Assembly: GCA_001898485.1 (NCBI GenBank)
Contig: MKTY01000019.1
Coordinates: 496,001 to 560,000, forward strand
Direction of reading: 5' to 3'
From: Sphingobacteriales bacterium 46-32
Lineage (GTDB): Bacteria; Bacteroidota; Bacteroidia; Chitinophagales; Chitinophagaceae
DNA: 64,000 nt
How positions within the stretch are numbered: position 1 is the stretch's first letter; every line of letters begins with the position of its first letter. Both the position numbers and the translations under genes were made by a program. Of the stretch, positions 4,810 to 28,974 are shown in pieces. The notes under the pieces are model-generated. The model saw nothing but the letters and a program-made list of their open reading frames with translations, did not search any database and was not told where the DNA came from.

Positions 4810-6063
4810 GTGGATCGAGTTATTGCAAAAAAGACATGGAGTAAGAAGCGTATCATCACCATTGCCGGTGTGGTGGGTGTGGCGGCCCTGATTGGCGCCA
4901 GCTATTATTTTACTTCCGGAAAATCGCGGCTGAATGTTGACATGGAACGTATTACCATTGGTGAAGTGAAACATGGTACTTTCCAGGAGTTTATTCCCGT
5001 CAATGGCGTAGTAATGCCTATAAGCACTATTTTTCTGGATGCCCTCGAAGGCGGCCGGGTAGAAGAAAAATTTGTGGAAGACGGAGCCATGATGAAAAAA
5101 GGCGAGCCTATTCTGCGCCTCTCAAACACAGACCTGGAATTAAACCTCATAAACCAGGAAACTTCTGTATATAACCTGCTGACCCAAATGCAGATTTCAC
5201 AGAATGCAGCCCGCCAGAATACCATCAGCAAACTCAACCAGATGACCGATGTGGAAAGCACCCTGCGTGAGGCGGAGCGTATTTATAAACTCAACAAACT
5301 GCTGTACGAAAAAAAGGCAATTGGCCTGCAGGAACTGCGCCAGGCAGAAAATAATTACAACTATCAGTTGGAGAAAAGACGCCTTTCTGAAGAAATTCTG
5401 AAACAGGATTCTATCAGCAGCAAACAGGAAGTGAATCAGGCCAGTCAGTCTTATGCGCGTACACAAAATGCACTGGGTGTAATGCGTAAAAAGGTGGGTG
5501 ATCTGATCGTGCGCGCCCCCGTTGATGGCCAGCTTACCTCACTGGATGCGGAGATAGGCCAGTCTAAAAATAAAGGCGAACGCCTGGGACAGCTCGACAT
5601 CCTCAGCGGCTTTAAAGTAAGGGTGGAAATAGACGAGCATTATATTTCCCGTATCTATACCGGATTGATGGGACAGTTTTCTTTCGCCGGCAAAGACTAT
5701 AAACTCAAGATTAAAAAAGTATATACACAGGTAACCAATGGCCGCTTCCAGGTAGATATGGAATTTGAAGGGGAAGTGCCTGCAGGTATCCGCCGTGGAC
5801 AAACCCTGCAGATCCGCCTGGCATTAAGCGACGAAACAACAGCTCTCCTGCTGCCCAAAGGAGGATTCTACCAGCTTACTGGTGGCAACTGGATCTTCAA
5901 AGTGAGTGAAAGCGGAAACACCGCCTACCGCGTAGATATTCAGCTGGGGCGTCAGAATCCTGATTATTACGAAGTACTGCAGGGATTGAAGCCGGGCGAC
6001 AAAGTAGTTACCTCCAGCTACGAGAACTATGAGAAAATGCAGGAACTGGTTCTGAAAAAATAA
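4810..6063 (+). CDS. HlyD/RND-type periplasmic adaptor (membrane fusion protein)
   Basis: A 417-residue adaptor that should bridge the inner-membrane ABC permeases of this locus to the TolC-like channel at 27550-28974. A single N-terminal helix spans about residues 15-36. Two lipoyl half-motifs (about 77-107 with GGRVEEKFVEDG, and about 237-265 with VRAPVDGQLTS) flank a long helical hairpin rich in Gln, Leu and Glu (about 108-235). A beta-barrel and membrane-proximal domain follow, ending in GLKPGDKVVTSS. The start is a GTG at 4810; no in-frame ATG lies nearby upstream. It is the first gene of the rightward cluster and the only adaptor visible for eight permeases. Confidence 0.93.
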   Translation: MDRVIAKKTWSKKRIITIAGVVGVAALIGASYYFTSGKSRLNVDMERITIGEVKHGTFQEFIPVNGVVMPISTIFLDALEGGRVEEKFVEDGAMMKKGEPILRLSNTDLELNLINQETSVYNLLTQMQISQNAARQNTISKLNQMTDVESTLREAERIYKLNKLLYEKKAIGLQELRQAENNYNYQLEKRRLSEEILKQDSISSKQEVNQASQSYARTQNALGVMRKKVGDLIVRAPVDGQLTSLDAEIGQSKNKGERLGQLDILSGFKVRVEIDEHYISRIYTGLMGQFSFAGKDYKLKIKKVYTQVTNGRFQVDMEFEGEVPAGIRRGQTLQIRLALSDETTALLLPKGGFYQLTGGNWIFKVSESGNTAYRVDIQLGRQNPDYYEVLQGLKPGDKVVTSSYENYEKMQELVLKK

Positions 6064-6085
6064 TCAACATCGAAAACTAAAAGCC

Positions 6086-6268
6086 ATGCTACTTAAATTT
6101 TTATCCGTTGTACTGACCTGCTGGTTATCGCTGTTTGCTACTCCTGGCAAACGCACCGTGGAAGAGAAAGATACCTGCAAAGGCAAAACACAACAGGAAG
6201 GCTGCCAGCAGACCGCTGGTACCGGATATGATCTGTCTACTGTAGACTATCTTATACTGAACATTTAA
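6086..6268 (+). CDS. Small putative secreted peptide within the efflux cluster
   Basis: A 60-codon ORF starting 22 bp after the adaptor stop and ending 37 bp before the ATPase start, on the same strand. The N-terminus (MLLKFLSVVLTCWLSLFATP) looks like a signal peptide with a likely cleavage near residue 18-20. The remaining ~40 residues are polar and contain two cysteines (Cys31, Cys40). I do not recognise a family. It could be a transporter accessory or cargo peptide, or a chance ORF; its position between two cluster genes and its signal-like start are the only support. Confidence 0.45.
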   Translation: MLLKFLSVVLTCWLSLFATPGKRTVEEKDTCKGKTQQEGCQQTAGTGYDLSTVDYLILNI

Positions 6269-6305
6269 CGTCAACCCGTATACATATTTATTTAAAAAAG
6301 AAAAA

Positions 6306-6983
6306 ATGATCAAGATAACTAATCTCGAAAAGATCTACCGCACTGAAGAAGTGGAAACGGTTGCCCTCAACAAGCTTTCCATGGAAGTGAAGGAAGGGGA
6401 GTTCGTAGCTATCATGGGACCTTCGGGTTGCGGCAAGTCAACCTTGCTTAATATCCTCGGATTGCTGGATGACCCCGATGCCGGTAGTTTTATTTTCAAT
6501 GGCATTGAAGTAGCAAAATTCAATGAACGCAAACGTGCCGATCTGCGCAAACGCAATATCGGTTTTGTATTCCAGAGCTTCAACCTGATTGACGAGCTTA
6601 CCGTATTCGAAAATGTGGAGCTTCCACTCATTTATACCGGTGTTAAATCTTCTGATCGCAAAAAAAGAGTCGAGGAAGTACTGGATAAGGTACAGATCAT
6701 GCATCGCCGCAATCACTATCCCCAACAACTATCGGGTGGTCAGCAACAGCGTGTGGCCGTAGCCCGCGCAGTAGTTAACAGTCCCAAGCTTATTCTGGCG
6801 GATGAGCCTACAGGTAATCTGGACTCTTCAAACGGTAATGAAGTAATGCAGATGCTCACGGATCTGAATGAGCAGGGAACTACGATTGTGATGGTAACAC
6901 ACAGTGAGCATGATGCCCGCTACAGTCATCGCATTATCCGTATGCTGGATGGCCAGACTGTTTTGGAAAATATTATGGTATAA
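6306..6983 (+). CDS. MacB/LolD-type ABC ATPase (canonical copy)
   Basis: A 225-residue nucleotide-binding protein expected to power the FtsX-type permeases downstream by mechanotransmission across the inner membrane. Walker A is GPSGCGKST, the Q-loop lies in FVFQSFNLI, the signature is LSGGQQQR, Walker B is LILADEPT, the D-loop is GNLD and the switch His is in MVTHSEHD. Length and motif set match the MacB/LolD class. It precedes permease 1 by 35 bp. Compare the second ATPase at 26834, which departs from consensus in both signature and D-loop. Confidence 0.96.
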   Translation: MIKITNLEKIYRTEEVETVALNKLSMEVKEGEFVAIMGPSGCGKSTLLNILGLLDDPDAGSFIFNGIEVAKFNERKRADLRKRNIGFVFQSFNLIDELTVFENVELPLIYTGVKSSDRKKRVEEVLDKVQIMHRRNHYPQQLSGGQQQRVAVARAVVNSPKLILADEPTGNLDSSNGNEVMQMLTDLNEQGTTIVMVTHSEHDARYSHRIIRMLDGQTVLENIMV

Positions 6984-7018
6984 CACGATTTTTTAAGTGT
7001 AAAGTATAACCAGCTGTT

Positions 7019-9436
7019 ATGATCAAGAACTATCTGAAGATAGCGCTGCGCAATATTAAGCGGCACAAAGGATTTGCATTTCTGAATATTTTTGGATTAT
7101 CTGTAGGGTTGGCAGCCTGTCTGTTACTGTTTATCGTTATTCGTTACGAAAACAGCTACGACAAATTCCTGCCGGAACATGAAAGTGTATATCACATTGC
7201 CACGCAGGATAAAACCGCAGATGGATTATTTCATACTCCGGGCATTCCATTTCCAGCACTGGATGCCGTAAGACTGGATATACCGCAGGCGACTACCGGG
7301 GCATTGTATGCCAGCTATGGTAGTCAGATATCCGTGTTGGGTAAAACACCTAACGACCCTGCCACTAAAAAATTTATGGAAGGCTCGGGTATCTTTTATG
7401 CAGATCCCGAGTTTTTCAAAGTATTTCAATATAAATGGCTTCAGGGCAGTCCCGAAGTACTGAAAGAGCCGAACGTAACCGTACTCACCCAAAAAGCAGC
7501 TGAGAAATATTTTGGCAGCTGGAAAGATGCTATTGGCCAGTATATCCGGATGGATAATGCCATCGATTATAAAGTGAGCGGTATACTCGAAAACCCGCCC
7601 GCAAATACGGACTTTCCCCTGGCAGTAGTACATTCATTGATTACATCCCGTAATAATGCGCGCGCTACACAGTATTCTACAGACTGGGGGTCTACTACAA
7701 GCAATTTTCAATTGTATATGAAATTGCCTGCAGGCGTTTCACAGGCTGCTATTAATAAGCAGTTACAGATATTCAGCGACAAACATTATGAAAACCAGAA
7801 TTCATCTAACAAACGGCTTAATTTCTTACGCCCGTTAAAGGATGTTCATTTCGATACACGCTTTGGCAACCTGGGTACTCACGTTATTTCCAGGAGCACT
7901 TTATGGACACTGACTCTTATCGGTGTATTTATCATGCTCATGGCCTGTATCAACTTTATTAACCTGTCTACTTCCCAGGCTATAAACCGGTCAAAGGAAA
8001 TCGGGGTAAGGAAAGTTCTGGGAAGCAGAAGAAAAGACCTTTTCTGGCAAATGATGGGCGAAACGGGCATTATTGTTTTCATTTCGCTGGTACTGTCTTT
8101 TGTGCTGGCAGCTATTTGCCTGCCTTTTATTACACATATTGCTTCTATTCCCGAGTCGCTCAACATATTTACAGCTGAGATATTGCTCTTTGCAGTGATT
8201 ACGGGTGTGGTGGTTACTCTTTTTGCGGGATTTTATCCCTCCCTCATCCTTTCCGGATTCACTCCATTGCTGGCGTTGAAAAATAAGATAACGTCTGCCA
8301 GTATCGGTGGCATTTCATTGCGCCGTGGATTGGTGATCACCCAGTTTGTTATATCACAGGTGTTGCTGATAGGCACAATTGTAGCCATAATGCAAATGGA
8401 CTATGTACACAAAGCCGATCTTGGTTTCAATAAAGAAGCGGTGCTGGTATTGACTGGTAATGCAGATAGTGCGGTGAATGCGAAGCAGGCCTCTTTCAAA
8501 CAGGAATTGCTGCGGGTGCCTGGTGTGCAGTCTGTATCTTATAGCAGTGATATGCCTTCTTCAGAAAACAACTGGGCTACCAATTTTGCTTTTGATCATA
8601 AACCAGATGCGGAGTTTTCGCTTTATCTCAAGTTTGCAGACGAAGACTATTTTAAAACATATGGACTGCAACTGCTGGCCGGATCAGTTTATGCACATAG
8701 TGATACCGTACGGGATGTAGTGGTGAACGAAACTGTTCTCAAACGGCTGGGCATTAAGAACCCGCAAGACGCTGTAGGCAAGGAACTGCGTACCGGTCGC
8801 GGCCCCTGGCGCACCGTTGTGGGCGTGGTAAAAGATTTTAAGACCAACTCGCTCCGCGAAGAGACCAAGCCAACTATGATAGCTCCGCGTCAGCGCGATT
8901 ATTATAATACATCCGTTAAAATAAATAGTACTAACCTGGCTACTACGCGTAAACAGGTAGAAGCATTATGGGATAAGTTTTTCCCCGATTACGCTTTTGT
9001 CAGCTTCTTCATGGAAGAAACCATTGAAAGTTTTTATCAGCAGGAGACACAGCTTTCATTGCTGTATAAAATATTTGCAGGCATCGCCATCCTTATCTCC
9101 TGCCTGGGATTGTATGGTCTTGTATCTTTTATGGCTGTACAACGTACCAAGGAAGTAGGCGTGCGTAAGGTACTGGGAGCATCTGTATCTAATATTATGT
9201 ACCTGTTTTCGAAAGAATTTACCCTGCTGATCCTGATCGCATTTGTACTGGCAGCACCACTGGCCTGGTATATGATGAATAACTGGCTCGGTAATTTTGC
9301 TTACCGTGTTTCTATGGGAGCAGGCGTTTTTGTAGGTGCGGTATTGCTGTCTGTACTTATAGCCTGGATTACCGTGGGCTACAAATCATACAAAGCAGCT
9401 GTTGCCAATCCGGTTAAAAGCCTGCGCGCCGAGTAA
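7019..9436 (+). CDS. FtsX/MacB-type ABC permease 1 of 8
   Basis: An 805-residue inner-membrane permease with the duplicated MacB layout: N-terminal helix (about 20-42), periplasmic domain, three helices (about 295-415), fifth helix (about 436-455), second periplasmic domain, three C-terminal helices. Each half has the cytoplasmic coupling motif that docks on the ATPase: EIGVRKVLG near residue 330 and EVGVRKVLG near residue 713. It ends in NPVKSLRAE, a tail shared by most paralogs in the array. The start ATG at 7019 follows the ATPase by 35 bp. Substrate unknown; MacB relatives export peptides, macrolides or move envelope components. Confidence 0.95.
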   Translation: MIKNYLKIALRNIKRHKGFAFLNIFGLSVGLAACLLLFIVIRYENSYDKFLPEHESVYHIATQDKTADGLFHTPGIPFPALDAVRLDIPQATTGALYASYGSQISVLGKTPNDPATKKFMEGSGIFYADPEFFKVFQYKWLQGSPEVLKEPNVTVLTQKAAEKYFGSWKDAIGQYIRMDNAIDYKVSGILENPPANTDFPLAVVHSLITSRNNARATQYSTDWGSTTSNFQLYMKLPAGVSQAAINKQLQIFSDKHYENQNSSNKRLNFLRPLKDVHFDTRFGNLGTHVISRSTLWTLTLIGVFIMLMACINFINLSTSQAINRSKEIGVRKVLGSRRKDLFWQMMGETGIIVFISLVLSFVLAAICLPFITHIASIPESLNIFTAEILLFAVITGVVVTLFAGFYPSLILSGFTPLLALKNKITSASIGGISLRRGLVITQFVISQVLLIGTIVAIMQMDYVHKADLGFNKEAVLVLTGNADSAVNAKQASFKQELLRVPGVQSVSYSSDMPSSENNWATNFAFDHKPDAEFSLYLKFADEDYFKTYGLQLLAGSVYAHSDTVRDVVVNETVLKRLGIKNPQDAVGKELRTGRGPWRTVVGVVKDFKTNSLREETKPTMIAPRQRDYYNTSVKINSTNLATTRKQVEALWDKFFPDYAFVSFFMEETIESFYQQETQLSLLYKIFAGIAILISCLGLYGLVSFMAVQRTKEVGVRKVLGASVSNIMYLFSKEFTLLILIAFVLAAPLAWYMMNNWLGNFAYRVSMGAGVFVGAVLLSVLIAWITVGYKSYKAAVANPVKSLRAE

Positions 9437-9465
9437 GCGCAGACTGATTTACATGAGAAGGTAGA

Positions 9466-9535: not shown

Positions 9536-9577
9536 CTTTTCCCTGTTTCAGACATATTAACCTTACATTCTAAAGCC

Positions 9578-11977
9578 ATGCTTAAAAACTACCTTAAAAT
9601 TGCGCTCCGGAAACTGCAGAAGAATAAGCTGTATTCCGGCATTAATATTATCGGCCTTACAATTGGCCTGGCCGCCTGTCTACTCATTGCCGTTTTTATC
9701 CGTAGCGAACTGGCCTATGATCAATTTCATACCAACAAAAACAGGATAGCCCGTGTTACGATGGATTATCAGCAGTCTGGCACTGCTACCACCACGGCCG
9801 TTACTGGTACCAAACCTGGACCTCAGTTTAAAAGAACCTTTCCCGAGGTACAGGATTTTGTACGTACTTATATCGCCAGCCGCGTAGTAGGCAATGGCGC
9901 CGATATGTTTGAGGAGCCATCGGTATTATATGCCGACTCTTCTTTCTTCCACGTATTTTCTTTTCCGCTTGTACAGGGACAGGTTGCTACTGCATTGGAT
10001 GTGACTGATAAAATTGCGATCAGCAGTACTACCGCAAAAAAGTATTTTGGGAAATCAGATCCCATTAATAAAGTGCTGAAAGTAGGTACGAAAGATTTTA
10101 CAGTTTCAGCAGTGTTCGCAGATATTCCGCAGGAATCACAACTCAAATTCGATTTTGTGACCCGGTTCGACAACCTGGGCAGCTTTACCCAGGAAGAAAA
10201 CTGGTGGACAGCCAACTGGATCACCTACCTGATATTAAAAGATGGAGCCAGTATGCCGGCTCTGCAGAAGAAGATAGATGAATTTATGAAAACGCCGGAA
10301 GTACGCAAAGAGGCACGTCTTGGCAATAGCAACGACTACCTGCGGTACAACCTTGAACCGTTGACACAGGTGCACCTCCATTCCAAACTGGCCGGTTTTG
10401 AGCCAAACGGCAACATGCGGTACATCTATATTTTTTCCATTATAGCACTGCTGATACTGGTAATTGCCTGTGCCAACTATACAAACCTGGCGGTAGCACA
10501 GTCTGCGGCACGCACCGGAGAAATTGGTATGCGCAAGGTTATGGGTGCATCGCGCCGGCAGGTATTTTATCAGTTTATGGGCGAGTCTGCATTGATCACG
10601 CTAATAGCAGGCATGCTTTCAATTGCAGTTGCTGCCATGATGGTGCCTTATTTCAATGAGATAACCGGCAGGGCCTTTACTGTTTCGGATGTTATGCAAC
10701 CTGTTGCTGTTGTGCTGCTGCTACTCTGCGTGTTGATCGTGACCATACTTGCAGGTATTTATCCGGCCCTGGTCATTTCAGGTACAGGTATAATGAGTAT
10801 ACTGCGTAAAGGATTCAATTTTACAGGCGGCAATACGACCTTACGCCGTACGCTGATAGTGGCACAGTTTGGTATTTCCGTTTTCCTGATCATATACACC
10901 GGCATCATTTTGCAACAGATGAAGTATATGCGCGAGAAAAATCTCGGGTATGACCGCGATCACATACTTGTACTGCCTGTAGACCGTAAAATGAAGGAAA
11001 ACTTTGTGGCATTAAGAGATGCTATTGCCAATGTGCCGGGAGTAAACAGTGTAACCGGAGCTTATGAAACACCGGAGTTTATTGAGTGGGGTGATGGTAT
11101 TGTGGCCAATGATGAAAAAGGCCAGCATTCTATTTCGCTCAATGCATTGCCGGTTGATCTGGGCTTTACCTCAACCATGAAAATGCAAATGGCCGCCGGA
11201 CGCGATTTTACCGAATCTGATTTTGCACTGATGGATACGTCCAGTAATGGAGCAAATTTTCGCCAGCCATATATAATCAACGAAGCGCTGGCCCGGAAGA
11301 TCGGCTGGACACCCGAAGAATCTATCGGACGCACGATTGAAAAAAGTGATCCGGGCCCTGTTGTGGGCGTGGTAAAAGATTTTCACTTCGAAAGTCTTCA
11401 CGAGCCGGTCAAACCGCTTGTAATGTTTCTGAGCCGCGATTTGGTACTCACATTTATGGTGCGTATCAGCGGAAATCAGCAACAGGCTATTTCGCGACTG
11501 GAAACATTGTGGAAAGAGCGGGTGCCTCATCGGCCTTTTCAGTACCATTTTCTTGATGAAGATTATAATAAATTATATCAGGCAGAACAACGTAGTGCAA
11601 CATTGTTTGTTGCCGCTGCGACTTTAGCCATAGTACTGGGCTGTCTCGGCCTGTTTGGTCTGGCTGCGTTTACCACTACACAGCGTGTAAAAGAGATTGG
11701 TATCCGCCGTGTACTGGGAGCAGGATTGGGAAGTATTGTTATGCTGATTGCCAGCAATTTTCTGTGGATGGTGGGTATCGCCATTGTACTGGCTGCTCCG
11801 CTGGCCTGGTATGCGGGCAATCGGTGGTTGCAGGATTTTACCTATCGTATTTCGGTAAGTGCATGGCTCTTTGGAGCTACAGCTGTAGTGGTTGTTTTGA
11901 TAGCATTATTGACCGTAGGCTACCAGGCCATCAAAGCGGCAATAGCTAACCCCGTCAAAAATTTAAGAATCGATTAA
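9578..11977 (+). CDS. FtsX/MacB-type ABC permease 2 of 8
   Basis: A 799-residue paralog with the same eight-helix, two-periplasmic-domain architecture. Coupling motifs are EIGMRKVMG (first half) and EIGIRRVLG (second half). The first-half transmembrane segment reads IACANYTNLAVAQS, where most other copies have CINFMNL. The tail is NPVKNLRID instead of SLR(A/T/S)E. It starts with ATG 141 bp after permease 1 and is followed after 11 bp by permease 3, so 2 and 3 are surely cotranscribed. Confidence 0.95.
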   Translation: MLKNYLKIALRKLQKNKLYSGINIIGLTIGLAACLLIAVFIRSELAYDQFHTNKNRIARVTMDYQQSGTATTTAVTGTKPGPQFKRTFPEVQDFVRTYIASRVVGNGADMFEEPSVLYADSSFFHVFSFPLVQGQVATALDVTDKIAISSTTAKKYFGKSDPINKVLKVGTKDFTVSAVFADIPQESQLKFDFVTRFDNLGSFTQEENWWTANWITYLILKDGASMPALQKKIDEFMKTPEVRKEARLGNSNDYLRYNLEPLTQVHLHSKLAGFEPNGNMRYIYIFSIIALLILVIACANYTNLAVAQSAARTGEIGMRKVMGASRRQVFYQFMGESALITLIAGMLSIAVAAMMVPYFNEITGRAFTVSDVMQPVAVVLLLLCVLIVTILAGIYPALVISGTGIMSILRKGFNFTGGNTTLRRTLIVAQFGISVFLIIYTGIILQQMKYMREKNLGYDRDHILVLPVDRKMKENFVALRDAIANVPGVNSVTGAYETPEFIEWGDGIVANDEKGQHSISLNALPVDLGFTSTMKMQMAAGRDFTESDFALMDTSSNGANFRQPYIINEALARKIGWTPEESIGRTIEKSDPGPVVGVVKDFHFESLHEPVKPLVMFLSRDLVLTFMVRISGNQQQAISRLETLWKERVPHRPFQYHFLDEDYNKLYQAEQRSATLFVAAATLAIVLGCLGLFGLAAFTTTQRVKEIGIRRVLGAGLGSIVMLIASNFLWMVGIAIVLAAPLAWYAGNRWLQDFTYRISVSAWLFGATAVVVVLIALLTVGYQAIKAAIANPVKNLRID

Positions 11978-11988: not shown

Positions 11989-14343
11989 ATGTTTCAATAT
12001 CTGAAAATTGCTCTAAGGCAGTTTAGAAAAAATACTGGCTTTTCGGCATTAAATATTCTGGGCCTGGCATTGGGAATGGCTTGTGCCACACTTATTGTAC
12101 TATGGATCGGAAGTGAGTATTCCTATAACCGGTTTCATAAACAATATGATAACCTGTACCAGATAATGGAAAGCCAGACCTATGACGGGAAAATATTCAC
12201 TTTCGCATCTATGCCCGGTCCCTTTGCTGCAGCAGCTAAACAGGAACTTCCCGAGATTGAGCTGGCAGCCCGTACAGACTGGGGGTATCGAATACTTTTT
12301 TCGCGGGAAGATAAAATGATCAATGAGGTCGGGTATTTTACTGACCCCGATTTTTTCAAGATGTTTTCCTTTAAAGTACTCAAAGGAGATACAACAGGTT
12401 TGCTGCAGGATCCGGCTTCGATCGCTATCACTAATAAAATGGCCGAGCGTTTTTTTGGTAAGGAAGATCCGCTGGGAAAACAGCTGCGGGCCAACAACGA
12501 TAAACTGTACCAGGTAAAAGCAGTAATCGAAGCGCCTTCACGCGAAAGTTCGCTCCGCTTTTCATGGCTGGCTTCTTTCCGCATTTATGAAGAGCAGAAT
12601 GCCTGGCTACGGGGCTGGGGCAGCAACGGCATACAGACTTTTGTAAAACTAAAGGAGGGCACAAACACAGAAGCCTTGAATAAAAAGCTGAATGGATATA
12701 TAGTCGCAAAGGATAGTAATGCTGCTGCTCATCCATTCCTGTTGCCTATGAAAGACTGGCGCCTTCGCTCCAATTTTGTGGACGGTAAGCAGAGCGGTGG
12801 CCGTATACAGTACGTCCGTCTTTTTAGTATTGTAGCTTTGCTCATTATACTGATTGCATGCATCAACTTCATGAATCTGGCTACAGCACGCTCCGAACAA
12901 AGAGCACGCGAAGTAGGTGTACGTAAGACGATGGGAGCGGGCAGGGGTGGCCTCATCCGCCAGTTTTTTACAGAGACTATTGCTATGGCTTTTTTGTCAA
13001 TGCTGCTGGCCGCTTTGCTTGTTGCGCTCACCTTACCGGCGTTTAATAAACTTGTGGAGAAAGAACTGAGCCTTGACCTGAGCAACCCTGTCATATCACT
13101 TGGCCTGCCGCTTATGGCACTTGCCTGCGGAGTACTGGCCGGTATTTACCCGGCACTTTATCTTTCTTCTTTTAACCCGGTAACTGTTTTTAAAGGGTTG
13201 AAGATTGGTAAAAATTCAGCCACAGTGTATGTGCGCAAAGGACTGGTTGTTACGCAGTTTGCCGTTTCTATTGTACTTATCATTTCCACCATTATTATTT
13301 ATCAGCAGATTCAACATGCCAAAAACAGAGATTTGGGTTATGATAAGGAAAATGTGATTTATTCGGGACTCAATGGCGATATGAACACCCGTTTTCCGGC
13401 CATATATAACGATCTGATGGCTACAAATGTGGTAGAGAATGCTGCACTGGCCACTTCACCCGTGATAAACATTGGGAGCAGCAGCGGCAATTTTTCCTGG
13501 CAGGGTAAAGAACCGGGCTCAGAGCTGCTGGTGTCTGTACTGCAGGTTACTCCTCAGTTTGTGCCGGCCATGGGTATGAAACTCAAATCGGGCCGTAATT
13601 TTAATGATGCCATTACTCCTGACAGTAACCGTATCATCATCAACGAAACAATGGCAGGTATTATGGGAAAGGAAGATCCTGTGGGAAAGATTATTACCCA
13701 GGGCTCGTCCAGTTACACAGTAGTGGGCGTAGTTCAGGATTATATCTATAACAACATATATAATAAACCTGAGCCGCTGATCCTTTTTTGCGATACGAGC
13801 AATGTATTTACCATGATGATACGCCTTAAAGCCACTTCTGATCTCAAGGCTTCACTGGCCAGGGTTGAAAAAGTAGTCAAGACGCATAGCCCGGCTTATC
13901 CGTTTGAATATACATTTCTCGATGCGGCCTTCAACGACCGTTTCAAAAGTGAGATGCTTATCGGTAACCTCTCACGCGTTTTTGCCATCTTAACAATTAT
14001 CATTTCCTGCCTGGGCTTATTCGGACTGGCGGCCTATACAGCTGAGCGAAGGACCAAGGAAATAGGAATACGGAAAGTATTGGGTGCATCGGTACCTGGA
14101 GTGGTGGCTATGCTGTCAAAAGATTTTATCCGCCTGGTGGCACTGGCTGCAATCATAGCCTTTCCGCTGGCCTGGTGGTTTATGAATAGTTTTCTGTCGG
14201 AATATGCATACCGTGTACAGATACACTGGTGGGTGTTTGCATTGGCAGGCGCATTGTCATTTGCCATAGCCCTGCTAACAGTAAGCTTTCAGGCAATCAG
14301 GGCAGCATTGACAAATCCCGTAGACAGTCTGCGTTCCGAATAA
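11989..14343 (+). CDS. FtsX/MacB-type ABC permease 3 of 8
   Basis: A 784-residue full-length paralog. Coupling motifs are EVGVRKTMG and EIGIRKVLG. The first-half helix CINFMNLATARSEQRA and the C-terminal half are close to those of permease 4, suggesting that 3 and 4 arose from a relatively recent duplication. The tail is NPVDSLRSE. The start ATG lies 11 bp after permease 2. Confidence 0.95.
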   Translation: MFQYLKIALRQFRKNTGFSALNILGLALGMACATLIVLWIGSEYSYNRFHKQYDNLYQIMESQTYDGKIFTFASMPGPFAAAAKQELPEIELAARTDWGYRILFSREDKMINEVGYFTDPDFFKMFSFKVLKGDTTGLLQDPASIAITNKMAERFFGKEDPLGKQLRANNDKLYQVKAVIEAPSRESSLRFSWLASFRIYEEQNAWLRGWGSNGIQTFVKLKEGTNTEALNKKLNGYIVAKDSNAAAHPFLLPMKDWRLRSNFVDGKQSGGRIQYVRLFSIVALLIILIACINFMNLATARSEQRAREVGVRKTMGAGRGGLIRQFFTETIAMAFLSMLLAALLVALTLPAFNKLVEKELSLDLSNPVISLGLPLMALACGVLAGIYPALYLSSFNPVTVFKGLKIGKNSATVYVRKGLVVTQFAVSIVLIISTIIIYQQIQHAKNRDLGYDKENVIYSGLNGDMNTRFPAIYNDLMATNVVENAALATSPVINIGSSSGNFSWQGKEPGSELLVSVLQVTPQFVPAMGMKLKSGRNFNDAITPDSNRIIINETMAGIMGKEDPVGKIITQGSSSYTVVGVVQDYIYNNIYNKPEPLILFCDTSNVFTMMIRLKATSDLKASLARVEKVVKTHSPAYPFEYTFLDAAFNDRFKSEMLIGNLSRVFAILTIIISCLGLFGLAAYTAERRTKEIGIRKVLGASVPGVVAMLSKDFIRLVALAAIIAFPLAWWFMNSFLSEYAYRVQIHWWVFALAGALSFAIALLTVSFQAIRAALTNPVDSLRSE

Positions 14344-21706: not shown

Positions 21707-24115
21707 ATGCTAAAGAACTATTTTAAAATTGCCTGGCGTCATCTGCTCAAGCATAAGACTACCAGTTTTATTAATATAACCGGTCTGTCTATAGCCATGG
21801 CTGCGAGTGTACTGATATTTTTATGGGTACACAATGAGTTGAGTTTTGATAATTATCACAAAGAGACTTCGTCTGTTTATCGTATTACCAGTCATATTAA
21901 TATTGGAAAGCAGGAGCCACTTGTATGGGAAACTACACCTTATTTGCTGGGCGAGAAAGCTAAAAGTGAACTACCGGCTATACTACAGGTAGCCCGTATC
22001 AGAGCCCGCCTGTACGATCCGGTAAATGTGAATGTGAAAGGAGAATATATCAAAGAGCCTAATACGGCTTACATAGACAGTGGCTGGTTGCGGATGTTTG
22101 ACTACAAATTCGTAACGGGTAATACCCGTGATTTTGACAGCGATCCAACTGCTGTGCTTATCACCGAATCTGTATCAAAAAAGTATTTCGGGCATACAAA
22201 TGCCGTAGGTGAAAAACTACGGATTGATACTGTAGATTTTGTGGTGAAAGCAGTCATGGAAGATGTGCCCAACAATTCAAGTTTTAGGTATGATATGCTG
22301 TTTCCCATAGCAACTTATCGTATTAATACACGCAACAGGCAAAACGATGAGCAGTGGGGGAATTACAACTATCTCACTTTTGTCAGACTCAGACCGGGCG
22401 TGGGTGTAGCCGCTGCAGAAAAACAGCTCACAAACCTGATGAATAAAGAACGGGAGAGGGCAGACCTTGCGCAAAGCCTTTTGCCGTTAAAAGATCTGCG
22501 GTTTGAAACTACACTCGCCAACAGCGTATTGCAGCATACCAGCAAAAAGGTGGTATATATCTTTTCTGTGCTGGGTGCGATATTGCTGCTCATTGCCTGT
22601 ATCAATTATGTAAATCTTACTACGGCAAGAGCATTGCAGCGGGTAAAAGAAGTAAGCATTCGTAAGATCGCAGGAGCAGAAAGGCAGCAGTTGCTTTGGC
22701 AGTTTATTGCTGAATCGGCACTAATGAGTTTTATTTCGTTGCTGGTAGCATTGCTGCTGATACGCCTGGCTTTGCCGGCATTCAATGCTTTTACCGAAAA
22801 GAATTTTGCACTGAACTTTGCCAACTCAGGATGGTGGCTGATACTGGGTGGTACATTGCTGGGCAGCATCATTCTGACCAGTATTTATCCGGCTATACTA
22901 CTTTCCTCTTTTGAGCCACTGGCTATTTTCAAAGGACGCAATGTTATGCGCATCCGTGACACCTGGTTGCGCAAAAGCCTGGTGGTAGTACAGTTTACAG
23001 TTTCTATTTTTCTGATTGTATCGACTATTGTAATTTATCGTCAGCTGAATTTTATCAATTCACAGCGGGCAGCCTATGATCAGAGCCGGGTCTTTGTAAT
23101 GGATATACCTTATCAGGTATTTCGTGGCAAAACGCCTGAGCAAAGAGCGGCCATTACTGCGGCTATACATACAGGTTTAAAAACAGAAACTTCTGTCAGA
23201 GAGGTATCACTTATAAGCCAGGAGTCGGTGGTGGATATGCGGGGCGGCAGCAGTGGTGATAGTAATGACTGGGATGGGCGTGATAAGGATTTTAAACCTA
23301 TGATCGCATTCCTGGGTGTGGATTCCAGCTTTAAGAATATTCTTAATCTTCAGTTGAAAGAGGGCAGATGGTTTTTGAGTGATAATGCAGCTGATAAGCA
23401 TAATTCAATATTGAATGAAACGGCTATCAGGGAATTCGGCATCCAGGAGCCAGTAATAGGCAAGCGGTTTACCAGTCAGGGCGATACGGGTGTTATCATC
23501 GGCGTGGTAAAAGATTTTTTCTATAAGAGCATGCACGAAAAGATTGGTCCGGTTGTGATCAGAGATGATCAGGAATATAATTCCACATTCCTCGTGCAGA
23601 CAGCGTCCGGCCGTACTAAGGAAGCTACAGCACGGGCAGAATCTGTATGGAAAAAGTTTATACCCAACCTTCCGTTTGAATATAAATTCACCAGCGAAGA
23701 ATTTGATAAATTATATCGCGATGACCGGCGTACTGCTACGCTTATCTGGATGTTTTCTGCAATTGCCATCCTTATTTCCTGCCTGGGTTTGCTTGGTCTC
23801 GCTGCACATACAGCAGAAAGGCGCAGTAAAGAAGTGGGTATCCGTAAAGTGCTGGGCGCATCGGTGGTTCAACTGGTGAACCTGCTTTCCAAAGAATTTT
23901 TATTACTGGTAATACTTGCTGCGGCAATAGCAACCCCCATCAGTTGGTGGGCTATGACCAGCTGGCTCGACAATTTTGCTTATCGCGTCGATCTGGTCTG
24001 GTGGGTATTTCTGGTAGCGACAGCCGTCTCGATGCTGGTGGCCCTGTGTACCGTAGGTTTTCAGGCTCTGCGGGCTGCCATGGCCAATCCGGTTAATAGC
24101 CTTCGGGCTGAATAA
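21707..24115 (+). CDS. FtsX/MacB-type ABC permease 7 of 8
   Basis: An 802-residue paralog. Coupling motifs are EVSIRKIAG (Gly to Ser in the first half) and EVGIRKVLG. The tail is NPVNSLRAE. The start ATG lies 52 bp after permease 6. Its stop is followed within 20 bp by a strong intrinsic terminator (24135-24169), so it is probably the last gene of the main transcript. Confidence 0.95.
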   Translation: MLKNYFKIAWRHLLKHKTTSFINITGLSIAMAASVLIFLWVHNELSFDNYHKETSSVYRITSHINIGKQEPLVWETTPYLLGEKAKSELPAILQVARIRARLYDPVNVNVKGEYIKEPNTAYIDSGWLRMFDYKFVTGNTRDFDSDPTAVLITESVSKKYFGHTNAVGEKLRIDTVDFVVKAVMEDVPNNSSFRYDMLFPIATYRINTRNRQNDEQWGNYNYLTFVRLRPGVGVAAAEKQLTNLMNKERERADLAQSLLPLKDLRFETTLANSVLQHTSKKVVYIFSVLGAILLLIACINYVNLTTARALQRVKEVSIRKIAGAERQQLLWQFIAESALMSFISLLVALLLIRLALPAFNAFTEKNFALNFANSGWWLILGGTLLGSIILTSIYPAILLSSFEPLAIFKGRNVMRIRDTWLRKSLVVVQFTVSIFLIVSTIVIYRQLNFINSQRAAYDQSRVFVMDIPYQVFRGKTPEQRAAITAAIHTGLKTETSVREVSLISQESVVDMRGGSSGDSNDWDGRDKDFKPMIAFLGVDSSFKNILNLQLKEGRWFLSDNAADKHNSILNETAIREFGIQEPVIGKRFTSQGDTGVIIGVVKDFFYKSMHEKIGPVVIRDDQEYNSTFLVQTASGRTKEATARAESVWKKFIPNLPFEYKFTSEEFDKLYRDDRRTATLIWMFSAIAILISCLGLLGLAAHTAERRSKEVGIRKVLGASVVQLVNLLSKEFLLLVILAAAIATPISWWAMTSWLDNFAYRVDLVWWVFLVATAVSMLVALCTVGFQALRAAMANPVNSLRAE

Positions 24116-24134: not shown

Positions 24135-24169
24135 AAGCCCGGTCATGTTGTTATGACCGGGCTTTTTTT
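24135..24169 (+). terminator. Strong intrinsic terminator after permease 7
   Basis: A perfect 12-bp stem (AAGCCCGGTCAT / ATGACCGGGCTT, 24135-24146 and 24153-24164) with a 6-nt loop, followed by an uninterrupted run of seven T. It interrupts what would otherwise be a continuous operon from 4810 to 28974. Confidence 0.9.
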
Positions 24170-24187
24170 ATGACTGTACGATACTGG

Positions 24188-24278
24188 GAACAGACTGTTC
24201 GTTTTCGGACACCCGGAGGTTTGGGAGTTGTGCAAGTAGCTGTAAATCAAATTGAATAGTATTGGCATACTGCTTGAA
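24188..24278 (+). promoter_or_regulatory. Sigma-54-like promoter with upstream palindrome before permease 8
   Basis: TGGCATACTGCTTGAA (24263-24278) matches the sigma-54 consensus TGGCAYRnnnnTTGCW at all specified positions except C to A in the -12 element, with the correct GG-N10-G spacing. A start about 12 nt downstream would leave a leader of about 45 nt before ATG 24335. Upstream is a perfect GAACAG-A-CTGTTC palindrome (24188-24200), a plausible activator site, and a CGGACA (24206-24211) also seen before the adaptor gene. This suggests that the locus's own NtrC-type regulator also drives permease 8, ATPase 2 and the channel. Inference from pattern and position. Confidence 0.5.
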
Positions 24279-24334
24279 ACGTGCAGAACAAGCTACGAAA
24301 AGCTTACTAAAACAACGAGCGTAAAATCTGTTGT

Positions 24335-26809
24335 ATGTTCAAAAATTATTTTGCAATCGCCTTTCGCAATTTTCGAAAACACCGATTGTTTTCGTTGATT
24401 AATATGGCCGGGCTGGCTATAGGCATTAGTGCTGCCCTGGTCATTTACCTGATCGTGCAACATGAGCTCAATTATGACCGCTTTCATGCCAACCGCGACC
24501 GTATTTACCGGGTTGTTTCTACTATCAGTTTTCCCGATATGGTGATGAATAATTCGGGAGTACCTGTCCCTACGGTCGATGCCAGCCGGACTGAGCTAAC
24601 GGGTATTGAAGACATCACCCATTTTATAACTGCCGGAACTATGAAGGTGGCAGTTCCTGTAGCAGGAGCAGATAATCCGGTTGTTTTTAAGAAACAGGAG
24701 GATATCATCTTCGCCGATAACCGTTATTTTAATTTTATTAAATACAAATGGCTGGCCGGCTCTCCTGTTACCGCCCTGCAGGCTCCATCATCGATAGTAC
24801 TCACTTCCAGCCGCGCCCACAGTTATTTTGGCGATACTGACGCCGGGCAACTGATTGGCCGCACCATTTTGTATGACGACAGTATACGTGTAACCGTAAC
24901 CGGTGTGGTACAGGACCTGGCAGGTGTTACCGATTTTAATTTTCGTGAATTTTTATCGAGAGCTACTATTGAAACAAATCCCGGATTACAACGTCGCTGG
25001 AGTTGGGATTCCTGGGGCAGTATCAATTCTGCCTCACAGATGCTGGTATTATTAAAGTCTGGCGTGAAAGCCGCGTCAATCGAAAAAAGCCTCGCACAGT
25101 TGCGGGAGCGTAAACGCGAAAAAAATCCTCAGGCAGAAAGTAATGAGAAGGATATAATCAGTAATTCACTGCAACCACTTGCAGATATCCACTTCAACAG
25201 TAAGTTTGATGCATTTGGTCAGCGTCAGGGGCATAAGCCCACGCTTTATGGTCTGCTGGCGGTAGGCGGATTCCTGTTGCTGCTCGGTTGTATCAATTTT
25301 GTAAACCTTACTACAGCCCAATCATCTAACCGGGCAAAAGAAATCGGTATCCGTAAAACGATGGGCAGTACCGTGCGTCAGCTGATGGCGCAGTTTCTTA
25401 GCGAGACCTTCCTGCTCACCTTTGCCGCAACTTTACTATCAGTAGCGCTGGCTCCCTGGTTGCTTCATATTTTCAGAGATTTTATTCCACCCGGCGTATC
25501 ATTTACAACGCTCAATCAGCCGCATGTATGGTTATTTCTGTTGCTGCTGGTAGTGGTGGTAACATTATTTGCCGGTCTTTATCCGGCCTGGGTACTTACC
25601 CGGTTTAAACCCGTAACGGTACTGAAAAATCAAGCGTATAGCGGTACTTCACAAACCCGTAAAGCATGGCTCCGTAAGGTACTCACCGTTACCCAGTTTG
25701 TCATTGCCCAGTTTCTGCTTATTGCAGTGCTGGTTGTAAGTAAACAGGTGCATTACTCGTTGAATAAAGATCTCGGATATTCTAAGGAAGCCATTGTGTC
25801 TACTTATGTGCCCTGGAATTTTTTCTCTGAGAAAAGAGATGATCGCCGTTTTACTCTGTATAATGAATTAAAAACACTTCCGGGTATTGAAAGAATTAGC
25901 CTGGCAGGTAACAGCCCCGCCTCCAACAGTACCAGCTCCAGTACATTCACATTCAAAAATGGCGATAAGAAGGTGGAGACTATGGTAGAGCTGAAAAAGG
26001 CGGATACCGGTTACTTTGCCCTGTATAATATGAAACTTCTGGCAGGCCGTAATCTGTTGCAGAGTGATACTACCAAGGAATATATCATCAATGAAACGTA
26101 TGCACATGTGCTGGGATTCAAAAATCCGGCAGATGCAGTGGGGCATTCTTTTGGCGATGATGGTAAAGGATTTCCTATTGTTGGTGTAGTGGGCGATTTT
26201 CATACCAAGAGCCTGCATGAGCCGATCAAGCCACTGGCATATTCATCCGCAATGAATGATTGCTACCAGATTCACCTGGCCCTGGATAAACATCAAAGTC
26301 CGGCGGAATGGAAAAAAACAATAGCTGCGGTTGAAGCAAAATTCAAAGCCATTTTTCCGGATGAAGATTTTCAATATGACTTTTTTGATCAGCAGATCGC
26401 CAATTTTTATAAAACAGAGCAGGACATTGCAAGGCTGCTGAAATGGGCTACTGCACTCTGCGTTTTTATCAGCTGCCTGGGCCTGCTGGGGCTGGTGATC
26501 TATGTAACCAATGCACGGACTAAGGAGATAGGGGTGCGCAAAGTGCTGGGTGCTTCCGTGCTGCAGCTGGTACGCCTCATTTCCCGCGATTTCCTGGCCC
26601 TGGTACTGGTCGCCTTTATCCTCGTAGTGCCACTGGCCTGGTGGGCTATGAGCAACTGGCTGCAGGACTTTGCTTATCGTACATCAATCAGTTGGTGGAT
26701 ATTTGCGGTTACCGGGCTGGGCATGCTGCTGATAGCTATCTGCATACTGGCAGCGCGAACAATAAAAGCTGCTATGGTAAACCCGGTTAAAAGTTTAAGA
26801 ACTGAATAA
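24335..26809 (+). CDS. FtsX/MacB-type ABC permease 8 of 8
   Basis: The longest copy (824 residues), separated from permease 7 by a 219-bp gap with a terminator and a promoter-like element. Coupling motifs are EIGIRKTMG and EIGVRKVLG. The first-half helix reads CINFVNLTTAQSSNRA. The tail is NPVKSLRTE. ATPase 2 follows after 24 bp, so this permease is the one most likely to be paired with it. Confidence 0.95.
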   Translation: MFKNYFAIAFRNFRKHRLFSLINMAGLAIGISAALVIYLIVQHELNYDRFHANRDRIYRVVSTISFPDMVMNNSGVPVPTVDASRTELTGIEDITHFITAGTMKVAVPVAGADNPVVFKKQEDIIFADNRYFNFIKYKWLAGSPVTALQAPSSIVLTSSRAHSYFGDTDAGQLIGRTILYDDSIRVTVTGVVQDLAGVTDFNFREFLSRATIETNPGLQRRWSWDSWGSINSASQMLVLLKSGVKAASIEKSLAQLRERKREKNPQAESNEKDIISNSLQPLADIHFNSKFDAFGQRQGHKPTLYGLLAVGGFLLLLGCINFVNLTTAQSSNRAKEIGIRKTMGSTVRQLMAQFLSETFLLTFAATLLSVALAPWLLHIFRDFIPPGVSFTTLNQPHVWLFLLLLVVVVTLFAGLYPAWVLTRFKPVTVLKNQAYSGTSQTRKAWLRKVLTVTQFVIAQFLLIAVLVVSKQVHYSLNKDLGYSKEAIVSTYVPWNFFSEKRDDRRFTLYNELKTLPGIERISLAGNSPASNSTSSSTFTFKNGDKKVETMVELKKADTGYFALYNMKLLAGRNLLQSDTTKEYIINETYAHVLGFKNPADAVGHSFGDDGKGFPIVGVVGDFHTKSLHEPIKPLAYSSAMNDCYQIHLALDKHQSPAEWKKTIAAVEAKFKAIFPDEDFQYDFFDQQIANFYKTEQDIARLLKWATALCVFISCLGLLGLVIYVTNARTKEIGVRKVLGASVLQLVRLISRDFLALVLVAFILVVPLAWWAMSNWLQDFAYRTSISWWIFAVTGLGMLLIAICILAARTIKAAMVNPVKSLRTE

Positions 26810-26833
26810 GAGAAATATTAATAAAAAGAAATT

Positions 26834-27499
26834 ATGCTGGAACTAAAGCACATTTACAAGTGGGTGAATACAGGCAACAACCGTACTTTTTTACTGAAGG
26901 ATATTAACCTGACCATCAACGAAGGCGAATTTGTATCTATCATGGGCCCATCTGGCTCTGGTAAATCTACCCTGCTCAACATTATAGGAATGCTGGATGG
27001 ATTCAATGAAGGGGAGTATAATTTTATGCATGAATCCGTTCATCAGTTAAAAGAAAAGCAACGGTCATCGCTTTACAAGCAATATATAGGATTTGTATTT
27101 CAGGCCTATCATCTCATTGATGAGCTTACTGTGTATGAAAATATTGAAACACCCTTGCTTTATCAGGACATCAAATCAAGTGAACGGAAAGCTATGGTGG
27201 CTGATATACTGGACCGTTTCCAGATTGTAGGGAAAAAAGATCTTTTTCCTACACAGCTTTCCGGCGGGCAACAGCAACTGGTAGGTATAGCACGCGCACT
27301 GATTGCCCGGCCTAAACTCCTGCTGGCTGATGAACCTACAGGTAACCTTAATTCCAAACAGGGCGAAGAGATCATGGAGCTTTTCAGCACACTCAATAAA
27401 GAAGGCATGACCATCATTCAGGTCACACACTCAGAAAAGAATGCCGACTATGGTTCGCGTGTGATCCATTTGCTTGATGGTATGATTGAAAAAAAATAA
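26834..27499 (+). CDS. MacB/LolD-type ABC ATPase, second copy with altered signature and D-loop
   Basis: A 221-residue ATPase between permease 8 and the outer-membrane channel. Walker A GPSGSGKST, Q-loop FVFQAYHLI, Walker B LLLADEPT and the switch His in QVTHSEKN are intact. The signature reads LSGGQQQL where the family has LSGGQQQR, and the D-loop reads GNLN where the family has GNLD. Both changes sit at the ATP sandwich interface. It may be a slower enzyme, or it may work in a heterodimer with the canonical ATPase at 6306; both are inference. Confidence 0.94.
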   Translation: MLELKHIYKWVNTGNNRTFLLKDINLTINEGEFVSIMGPSGSGKSTLLNIIGMLDGFNEGEYNFMHESVHQLKEKQRSSLYKQYIGFVFQAYHLIDELTVYENIETPLLYQDIKSSERKAMVADILDRFQIVGKKDLFPTQLSGGQQQLVGIARALIARPKLLLADEPTGNLNSKQGEEIMELFSTLNKEGMTIIQVTHSEKNADYGSRVIHLLDGMIEKK

Positions 27500-27549
27500 G
27501 CAGCATATAATTTTTAGCATTAACGACAACGTGAAATAAGAATCAGACA

Positions 27550-28974
27550 ATGAAAAGGATTTTTTTTGTGGTAAGTATGGGTTTGCTGGCGGGATTTGGC
27601 ATGGCCCAGGAAAATAACGGGCCGCTTACGCTGCGGCAGGCTATTGAAACAGGATTGGGTAAAAACCTGGATGTAAAACAAAGTGAGATAGCCATGGAAA
27701 CGGGCAAGATCAACTGGAACCAGGCCCGTCTTAATATGTTGCCTAACATTGACGGAAACGCAAGCGCCGGTATCAACCAGGGCCGTAGTATTGATCCTTT
27801 TACCAACTCCTATATCAACCAGCAGGTAAATTATAACAGCTACGGACTGGGTGCAGGGGTAGTGCTGTTTAATGGATTTTCGATGCAAAATTCAGTCAGG
27901 AGAACCGCCTATGCCTATGAGGCAGCCAAAATGGATCTGCAGCAGGTAAAAGATAATCTGACCATACAAATCATACTTGCTTACCTCCAGGTGCTTTCCA
28001 ATGACGATATGCTTACTCAGGCACGTAACCAGGAAGTATTGTCGAAACGGCAGGTAGAGCGACTCGAAGAAATGAATAAAGAAGGGTCTATTCCCCCCTC
28101 TCAGCTTTCTGATCTGAAAGGTCAGTACGCAAACGATCAGCTTTCTATCATAAGCGCAGAAAATGCACTGGAGTCGGCCAAGATCAGCCTCTGCCAGCTG
28201 ATGAATATACCTTATGATCCGTCAATGAAACTAGAGCGGATTGATGCACAATCGTATGCTGTAAAGTATGAGGAAACGCCTGCCTCTATTTATCAGACAG
28301 CATTGAAGCAATTTGCCCAGGTAAAAGCTACCGAACTGCGCCAAAGCAGTGCTTCGAAGGCAATTAAGGTGGCGCAGGGGCAGCTTTTCCCTACACTTAG
28401 CCTCAATGGAAACGTAAATACTAACTATTCAAGTGCCGCACGCAGCAGTACTTACCTGGGGCAGACGGATGTAACGTCTACTGATTATGTACTGGTCAAT
28501 GGCACTCCTTATCCGGTTGTATACAAACAATCCAACTTCAGTTCCGATAAGATAGCCTATGGCAAACAGCTCAACAATAATCTCTATTCATCGGTAAGTC
28601 TCAACCTGCGGGTTCCCATTTTTTCTTCCTGGCAGCAACGCAACCGTATTCGCCAGGCGCGACTGGACCTCAAAAATGCTGAACATGTAGCGCAAACTAC
28701 TAAAACCCAGTTGCAGCAGTCGATCGACCAGGCCTACCTGAATATGTCTACAGCCGCCAATCGGTTCCGTACATTGCTGGATCAGGTAAATGCATTTACC
28801 GAATCATTTGAAGCTGCCGAAGTGCGCTTCAATGCCGGAGTAGGCAACTCTATCGATTACCTCACTGCAAAAAATAACCTCGATCGGAGCAACATTAACC
28901 TGATAGCGGCTAAGTACGACTATGTGCTGCGTACTAAAGTACTGGATTATTACCAGGGTAAGCAGCTCTGGTAG
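27550..28974 (+). CDS. TolC-family outer-membrane efflux protein
   Basis: A 474-residue protein with a signal peptide (MKRIFFVVSMGLLAGFGMAQ, cleavage near residue 20) and two outer-membrane-efflux repeats of long helices and short strands, the architecture of a trimeric TolC channel-tunnel. The first repeat opens with TLRQAIETGLGKNLDVK, and the C-terminal repeat contains FNAGVGNSIDYLTAKNNL, typical of the family. It is the last gene of the export locus, 50 bp after ATPase 2, and completes a tripartite ABC-adaptor-channel pump with the adaptor at 4810. Confidence 0.95.
   Translation: MKRIFFVVSMGLLAGFGMAQENNGPLTLRQAIETGLGKNLDVKQSEIAMETGKINWNQARLNMLPNIDGNASAGINQGRSIDPFTNSYINQQVNYNSYGLGAGVVLFNGFSMQNSVRRTAYAYEAAKMDLQQVKDNLTIQIILAYLQVLSNDDMLTQARNQEVLSKRQVERLEEMNKEGSIPPSQLSDLKGQYANDQLSIISAENALESAKISLCQLMNIPYDPSMKLERIDAQSYAVKYEETPASIYQTALKQFAQVKATELRQSSASKAIKVAQGQLFPTLSLNGNVNTNYSSAARSSTYLGQTDVTSTDYVLVNGTPYPVVYKQSNFSSDKIAYGKQLNNNLYSSVSLNLRVPIFSSWQQRNRIRQARLDLKNAEHVAQTTKTQLQQSIDQAYLNMSTAANRFRTLLDQVNAFTESFEAAEVRFNAGVGNSIDYLTAKNNLDRSNINLIAAKYDYVLRTKVLDYYQGKQLW

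Follow-up and report, generated by a model that had tools for sequence, protein, structure and literature searches.

The 64,000 nucleotides analysed in this work (the window: positions 496,001 to 560,000 of contig MKTY01000019.1, or C19:496001-560000 of the 5.49 Mb, 27-contig genome of Sphingobacteriales bacterium 46-32) carry an export locus in which eight duplicated permeases of the MacB superfamily lie together with one periplasmic adaptor, two ATPases and one TolC-family protein. Our main finding is that this locus probably provides a single regulated, MacB-like tripartite chassis, which serves both the permeases of the array and further plug-in permeases dispersed over the genome, and the sequences point to the locus as the hub of a larger sigma54-type export regulon. 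Duplication within the permease chain, a conserved frame of genes with a variable cargo of permeases, a common promoter, co-occurrence of permease and adaptor across genomes and an asymmetry between the two ATPases were all observed by sequence. A shared chassis would explain the conserved frame, the variable cargo, the common promoter and the co-occurrence together; physical sharing of the parts, pairing of the ATPases as a heterodimer, direction of export, differences in substrate and control by the NtrC-type regulator of the window are what we infer.

The export genes follow each other on the plus strand (4810-28974) in the order adaptor, small open reading frame (ORF), ATPase 1, permeases P1 to P7, terminator, P8, ATPase 2 and TolC, and the genes of the NtrC-type regulator and a histidine kinase are divergent from the adaptor gene on the opposite strand (1813-4516):

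1813..3159, minus strand: histidine kinase with two transmembrane helices, a very short loop and no periplasmic sensor domain (N-terminus by hydropathy and by eye)
3149..4516, minus strand: NtrC-type sigma54-activating response regulator with GAFTDA loop (profile match and loop)
4616..4726, plus strand: frame promoter, with two TGTATC-N5-CGnACR dyads (about 4620-4636 and 4642-4658) and a sigma54-like TGGCAT at about 4711 (alignment A1, 10 genomes of 9 genera)
4810..6063, plus strand: periplasmic adaptor, HlyD/MacA/DarC-like (Pfam and NCBIfam)
6086..6268, plus strand: small ORF of 60 amino acids (aa) with a signal-peptide-like N-terminus and a hydrophobic C-terminal tail, a candidate accessory or ligand peptide (sequence)
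6306..6983, plus strand: ATPase 1, signature LSGGQQQR, D-loop GNLD (NCBIfam and motif alignment)
7019..9436, plus strand: permease P1, fused MacB-type pair, 805 aa (Pfam and modelled structure)
9578..11977, plus strand: permease P2, 799 aa (ORF, Pfam, motifs)
11989..14343, plus strand: permease P3, 784 aa (ORF, Pfam, motifs)
14402..16744, plus strand: permease P4, 780 aa (ORF, Pfam, motifs)
16794..19244, plus strand: permease P5, 816 aa (ORF, Pfam, motifs)
19255..21654, plus strand: permease P6, 799 aa (ORF, Pfam, relatives)
21707..24115, plus strand: permease P7, 802 aa (ORF, Pfam, motifs)
24135..24164, plus strand: intrinsic terminator, 13-pair stem and T tail, ending the first transcription unit (predicted from sequence)
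24179..24274 (G000:C19:520179-520274), plus strand: second regulon promoter, 5' of P8-ATPase 2-TolC (match to promoter model R1, E 3.8e-5, outside R1 training)
24335..26809, plus strand: permease P8, 824 aa (ORF, Pfam, motifs)
26834..27499, plus strand: ATPase 2, signature LSGGQQQLVG, degenerate D-loop GNLN (NCBIfam and motif alignment)
27550..28974, plus strand: TolC-family outer membrane exit duct (Pfam and NCBIfam)

The preliminary description of this DNA had reported eight consecutive full-length permeases of 780-824 codons, without frameshift, between one adaptor and one TolC and with two ATPases. This is borne out by the ORF coordinates, all eight frames being stop-free and on the plus strand, and the terminator and second promoter are predicted to split the locus before P8. 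The eight proteins share 28-40% pairwise identity, and MacB_PCD and FtsX exceed the Pfam cut-offs in every one of them, with two stretches of each domain. Since Pfam finds both domains twice per chain, each permease is a fused pair of MacB-type units, a pseudo-dimer, and the hetero-pairs of permeases that had been proposed as an alternative are therefore not needed, each chain being already such a pair according to Pfam and to the model of P1. An AlphaFold2 model of P1 built with 46 sequences (predicted local distance difference test, pLDDT, 86.3; predicted template modelling score, pTM, 0.83) has YbbP as its closest solved structure (Foldseek E 2.3e-19, TM-score 0.46; structural alignment Z 26.1, root mean square deviation 9.8 over 668 residues) and also matches the structures of MacB, LolE and BceB. 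The permeases are thus of type VII (MacB superfamily) by their domains in all eight cases, and by a MacB/LolE/YbbP-related fold in the case of P1. Crude hydropathy predicted eight transmembrane helices in 145 of 218 homologues, nine in 61 and ten in 8. Every array permease has the two coupling-helix motifs that had been described, but P2 has EIGMR, with M in place of I or V, and P4 ends in RPVKSIR instead of the NPV tail attributed to every copy. The motifs are intact in the array, with none of the inactivating coupling-helix changes that had been considered, and they are canonical in 210 (first) and 215 (second) of the 218 homologues, a retention that appears to exceed chance.

Within the array, the periplasmic domains are the divergent part (24% and 26% identity, versus 36%, 47% and 48% for the membrane parts), which fits the earlier suggestion that they recognise different ligands. 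Among near relatives, the periplasmic parts of P1-P7 are scarcely less constrained than the membrane parts, the pooled ratios of non-synonymous to synonymous substitution rates (dN/dS) being 0.047 and 0.038, respectively. In the same comparison dN/dS was 0.022-0.067 for P1-P7 (P5 and P6 compared in part), 0.012 for ATPase 1 and 0.003 for the adaptor; each permease tested is thus retained, without sign of current diversification. A pseudogene or decaying array was considered and is excluded by the zero stops in eight ORFs and by the purifying selection on P1-P7. A tree was built from 99 of 219 collected permeases (those above 900 aa and short fragments being left out of both alignment and tree), and in it the array and dispersed permeases of this genome are intermixed, with 6 label changes against a shuffled mean of 6.5-6.6. 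One dispersed permease (L063_4290) clusters with permeases from the G009 and G006 arrays (support 100) and another (L061) with one from the G010 array (support 93), so permease lineages occur both dispersed and in arrays. The closest relatives of the array permeases lie mostly in other genomes, and one recent-looking tandem pair is seen in G020. Recent tandem amplification of the array was also considered, and is excluded by the tree and by the lack of close pairs (maximum 40% identity).

The cargo varies while the frame around it is conserved. The loci read share the gene order kinase, NtrC, adaptor, ATPase 1, permeases, ATPase 2 and TolC, apart from G020, where TolC precedes the adaptor, G071, where ATPase 2 and TolC are inverted, and G009, where these two lie on a different contig. 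Identity to the window proteins is 89-95% for ATPase 1 and 66-82% for the adaptor in nine relatives (G002, G004, G006, G009, G010, G011, G015, G018 and G071); for these two proteins in G020 and G008 the values are 80 and 70%, 60 and 41%, and the adaptor is 69% identical in the L021 locus of an uncultured Lacinutrix, a flavobacterium. The permeases at the frames of the relatives are mostly 30-60% identical to any permease of the window. Full-length permeases adjoining the frame, counted by blastp against the window proteins, number 2 in G006, 3 in G008, 4 in G010, 5 in G020, 6 in G004, G011 and G071, 7 in L021, 8 here, 10 in G009 and 14 in G018; the count leaves aside G002, with permeases split into two or three frames, the fifth ORF of G010 (414 aa) and G015, with one permease before the contig end. 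The neighbourhood survey of array size called for in the preliminary description therefore gives 2 to 14 permeases beside the frame, and a fixed copy number, the trait that would have spoken against its account, is excluded. Permease arrays are widespread in Bacteroidota, and relatives of P6 at 41-60% identity occur in many members of the phylum, several of them as the sole window-like gene of their locus. A similar array on the Niabella defluvii chromosome (L028:1-16600) is broken into many short frames, which may be sequencing error.

Outside the array, the genome holds 12 further duplicated permeases, and within about 5 kb on each side of them the sole ATPase-like ORF lies near L064, with 29% identity. 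G071 has 44 duplicated permeases, of which 6 lie at the frame, 3 at ATPase 2 and 13 in a second tandem array, the rest being two pairs and 18 singles. The flanks of the second array, the part of it that was read, carry no frame protein.

A common promoter ties these scattered genes to the frame. The element before the adaptor consists of two TGTATC-N5-CGnACA dyads about 22 bases apart, followed after about 53 bases by TGGCA, and it is also found upstream of many dispersed permeases. Conserved enhancer dyads and a -24 TGGC element thus lie upstream of regulon members, as expected of a sigma54 regulon served by a bacterial enhancer-binding protein. The GAFTDA loop is present in all 11 frame NtrC proteins examined, and the NtrC of the window is the probable activator of the whole regulon. 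A first gapped promoter pattern had four dispersed permeases among its 7 matches and gave 1 match in the control, and scanning the window for a simple 16-base sigma54 element gave matches mostly inside genes. We then used R1, a sequence model built solely from ten frame promoters (10 genomes, 9 genera). In the genome of the window R1 gives 15 matches at E<=1, of which the best 13 are the frame promoter (part of the training set), the P8 promoter and 11 of the 12 dispersed permeases; the remaining two are the weakest (E 0.089 and 0.53). Nine of the 11 dispersed sites lie directly 5' of a permease; of the other two, one precedes a PadR-like ORF and one a gene for an SGGS-repeat protein, which is itself followed by a permease. 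The site at the PadR-like ORF belongs to a locus (L066:4963-7962) whose permease, of 878 aa, comes after that ORF and has an additional segment at its N-terminus, and the arrangement suggests added local control of that permease.

R1 was also applied to other genomes. In G071, which is complete in one contig and outside the training set, 23 of 28 matches at E<=1 have E<=0.0052, and 20 of these strong sites lie about 27-291 bp 5' of a duplicated permease, one at the adaptor, one at ATPase 2 and one elsewhere; none of the other five (E 0.16 and above, not counted) is near a permease. The single exceptional strong site (L108:1857-2297) precedes a gene for a 146-aa secreted protein that had no match in a Pfam search. 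In G011, whose frame promoter was part of the training set, all nine matches at E<=0.01 belong to the frame, to ATPase 2 or to one of seven dispersed permeases. Over 39 positive genomes of the family R1 gives 342 matches at E<=0.01, with a best E <1e-5 in 38 of them and in 29 of the 30 outside training, G001, a near relative of the present genome, being among the 30; the matches of G009, G018, G062 and G080 were placed against genes in part. Among 47 named loci, 27 of 31 matches are no more than 330 bp from a permease or a frame gene, a count that is biased because these loci were collected with a permease query. In at least 15 of 35 genomes an R1 site precedes ATPase 2 by 17-195 bp, including G009, G015, G045, G060 and G079, draft assemblies in which ATPase 2 has its own site and lies on a different contig from the adaptor, and G074, where ATPase 2 with its site is about 0.3 Mb from the adaptor on the same contig.

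Two kinds of small or secreted protein accompany the system. Judged by eye, 15 of 33 frame loci have next to the adaptor a small ORF similar to that of the window, with a hydrophobic N-terminus and a like C-terminal tail, other short ORFs with hydrophobic starts having been set aside by eye; the dN/dS of 0.22 for the ORF of the window comes from 7 changes only. The secreted SGGS-repeat protein is encoded in the L061 operon (L061:5033-6064) and beside ATPase 2 in G071 (L105:11156-12190), and a related form lies between permease and ATPase 1 in G020, the repeats in the three genomes being SGGS or SGDI. The protein is possibly an accessory factor of the regulon; it may resemble DUF4097 proteins, and a Pfam search of the G071 copy gave no match.

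Permease and adaptor also go together across the family. In 79 genomes, the present one included, searches for the permease (P5 as query) and for the adaptor, each at E<=1e-50, found both in 37, the permease only in one (G092), the adaptor only in one (G066) and neither in 40 (Fisher p 3e-20). A single adaptor match was obtained in 37 of the 38 adaptor-positive genomes, the match of G055 being in two pieces with a stop. At E<=1e-80, ATPase 2 was found once in each of 35 family genomes and ATPase 1 in 12 of 39 genomes, counting the present one; a search for ATPase 2 in 20 genomes of the order matched the present genome alone.

The two ATPases of the window are 50% identical to each other and differ in signature and D-loop. 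All 15 ATPase 1 proteins examined have LSGGQQQR and the D-loop GNLD, and the 15 readable of 16 ATPase 2 proteins have LSGGQQQ(L/I)VG with the D-loop Asp replaced (GNLN or GNLH). The two coupling helices of the permeases also differ from each other in alignment columns. Because of this asymmetry of signature and D-loop and of the differing coupling helices, the sequences suggest that ATPase 1 and ATPase 2 form a non-equivalent pair, a heterodimer, on a pseudo-symmetric permease.

We therefore hypothesize the following mechanism. A membrane-embedded kinase and the NtrC would switch on the chassis, the array permeases and the dispersed permeases together. The chassis would consist of the adaptor, ATPase 1 and ATPase 2 as a non-equivalent pair, and TolC, and the two conserved coupling helices of each fused permease would dock on the common ATPases. 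The divergent periplasmic domains would each take up a particular substrate, periplasmic or extracted from the membrane, which would be handed by mechanotransmission to adaptor and TolC. The earlier suggestion that the array permeases share ATPase, adaptor and exit duct is hence supported indirectly, through the conserved frame with variable cargo, the common promoter and the co-occurrence, and it may now be extended to the dispersed permeases, the physical sharing itself being presumed.

Several observations weigh against a chassis common to all these permeases. The -12 element of the promoter is weak and one base short of the canonical spacing (by eye, alignment A1), the dispersed permease L064 has no R1 match, and R1 yields 3, 0 and 3 matches at E<=1 in the frame-negative controls G003, G005 and G017 (best E 0.076) and 21 weak matches in 12 of 40 frame-negative genomes, none of them <1e-5. 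The Fisher p overstates independence, since the genomes are related, and G092 has permeases without an adaptor match and G066 the reverse, both being incomplete drafts (93% and 83%). Three permease-positive genomes (G001, G047 and G077) had no ATPase 2 match at E<=1e-80. G018 has a second ATPase 1 relative (67% identical; L060/G018:C130) with an adjoining permease and an R1 site before it, so that its chassis is not strictly single, and L060 is possibly a second small chassis. Finally, the DarD model gives 173-234 bits for four further ATPases of the present genome, of which two lie among housekeeping genes with no permease nearby and two adjoin permeases of 419 and 426 aa; because of these related proteins, another ATPase partner is possible.

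The same four ATPases favour a first alternative, that the dispersed permeases are co-regulated with the frame without being assembled on it, using other LolD/MacB-type ATPases or no TolC while the frame ATPases serve array members only. We regard this as unlikely, since array and dispersed permeases have the same coupling helices and intermix in the tree, lineages dispersed here are arrayed elsewhere (L063_4290 with G009 and G006, support 100; L061 with G010, support 93), and, of 41 adaptor-negative genomes, 40 have no permease match at E<=1e-50. An ordinary tandem duplication, leaving redundant copies with no special function, would agree with the wide occurrence of arrays in Bacteroidota and with the recent-looking pair of G020, but it is very improbable given that no pair of the array exceeds 40% identity, the nearest relatives are mostly in other genomes, all seven permeases tested (P1-P7) are under purifying selection and the promoter is kept at dispersed copies.

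Two other alternatives concern what is transported. Two transmembrane helices with a very short loop were found by hydropathy and by eye at the N-terminus of 10 of 10 kinases examined, and such an arrangement resembles intramembrane-sensing kinases. The array might work in detoxification and sensing as BceAB does, the permeases removing membrane-active antimicrobials and the kinase reading transporter activity. BceAB systems do without TolC and adaptor, which here belong to the frame, and this makes the idea somewhat unlikely as it stands, even with BceB among the structural matches of P1. In a sigma54 survey, sigma54 is linked, at the level of COGs and with Bacteroidia included, to COG0577 permeases, and sigma54-linked permeases of this COG are discussed as antimicrobial peptide systems (PMC12316311). 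The BceAB-like reading may name a substrate for the chassis rather than rival it. The substrate could instead be a secreted peptide or lipopeptide, with the small ORF encoding the exported signal as in darobactin-type clusters. The signal-peptide-like small ORF with its like C-terminal tails in 15 of 33 frame loci (by eye) would agree with this, as would the adaptor and ATPases, closest by E-value to darobactin transporter models, though below their cut-offs; yet the small ORF was not seen in the other 18 loci, a single peptide cannot account for dozens of permeases, and the window genes named in the ORF and NCBIfam results include no modification enzyme, so we hold this proposal to be quite improbable.

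Some further features of the window were noted. After TolC, 29057-29728 encodes a secreted 223-aa protein with no NCBIfam or Pfam match. At 34322-35183 a direct repeat of 123 bp occurs seven times (95% matches) next to a tRNA-Met (35171-35245), and the minus-strand ORF 34291-35061, which reads through the repeats, is probably not a gene. A DUF1016/YhcG nuclease-domain protein (36844-37941, Pfam) is unrelated to the export locus.

Compared with known systems, the locus resembles MacAB-TolC in its MacB_PCD and FtsX domains, adaptor, TolC, related ATPases and fold match, but here the ATPase is a separate chain, the permease is duplicated within its chain, and there are two ATPases and many permeases per frame; P1, P6 and P8 are not MacB proper, with at most 65 bits against the PRK10535 cut-off of 966 and the ATPases in separate genes. 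The darobactin exporter DarBCDE (NF038007, NF038008, NF038010) supplies the best NCBIfam model by E-value for the adaptor and both ATPases, and the scores remain below the cut-offs: 161 versus 450 for DarC, 303 and 255 versus 375 for DarD, and 117-139 versus 700 for DarB with P1, P6 and P8. The adaptor passes the cut-off of the broad model TIGR01730. Darobactin clusters have one permease each. By E-value, the three permeases scanned with NCBIfam (P1, P6 and P8) are closest to the acidobacterial duplicated orphan permease (ADOP, TIGR03434), with DarB, a 777-position model, second. The likeness to ADOP extends to a full-length match of P1 and to dispersed copies without an adjoining ATPase, but the window permeases are tied to a frame and a regulon, and P1, P6 and P8 reach 332, 245 and 333 bits against a cut-off of 622.3. 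Duplicated orphan permeases so named by RAST number 28 and 33 in two Dyadobacter genomes and are of unknown function in that naming (PMC11573002). In YbbAP-TesA, the best structural match, YbbP consists of two fused MacB-type units with two coupling helices, and it has 10 transmembrane helices, with a linking pair, and two copies of one ATPase (PMC12646458), unlike the roughly eight helices predicted here by hydropathy and the two different ATPases; P1 scores 22 bits against 999 with the YbbP equivalog. The Aat lipoprotein secretion system likewise combines a MacB/Lol-like permease and ATPase with an adaptor and a TolC-like protein, but it has one permease and an acyltransferase, AatD (PMC7943197), and no acyltransferase was noticed among the window genes read.

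In the open-licence literature we found no recognised account of one frame common to permease arrays and dispersed permeases. Duplicated permeases lacking an ATPase exist in large numbers and want an explanation; from the promoter and the co-occurrence, a motor, a regulator and an exit can be proposed for them. If the proposal is true, the energising module of a tripartite exporter would be shared in a modular way, and the variable cargo would amount to a catalogue of envelope substrates. The nearest parallel is found in group II energy-coupling factor (ECF) importers, where one energising module is common to several S-components, eight of them in L. delbrueckii (PMC7755397); these are importers of another ABC type, and the likeness is one of organisation, not homology. 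It is on balance likely that the present system is the counterpart, on the export side, of group II ECF transporters, a plug-in exporter whose single regulated ATPase 1/2 heterodimer, adaptor and TolC would serve interchangeable fused permeases by the dozen (here 8 arrayed and 12 dispersed, and 44 in G071), and that this would explain many orphan duplicated permeases.

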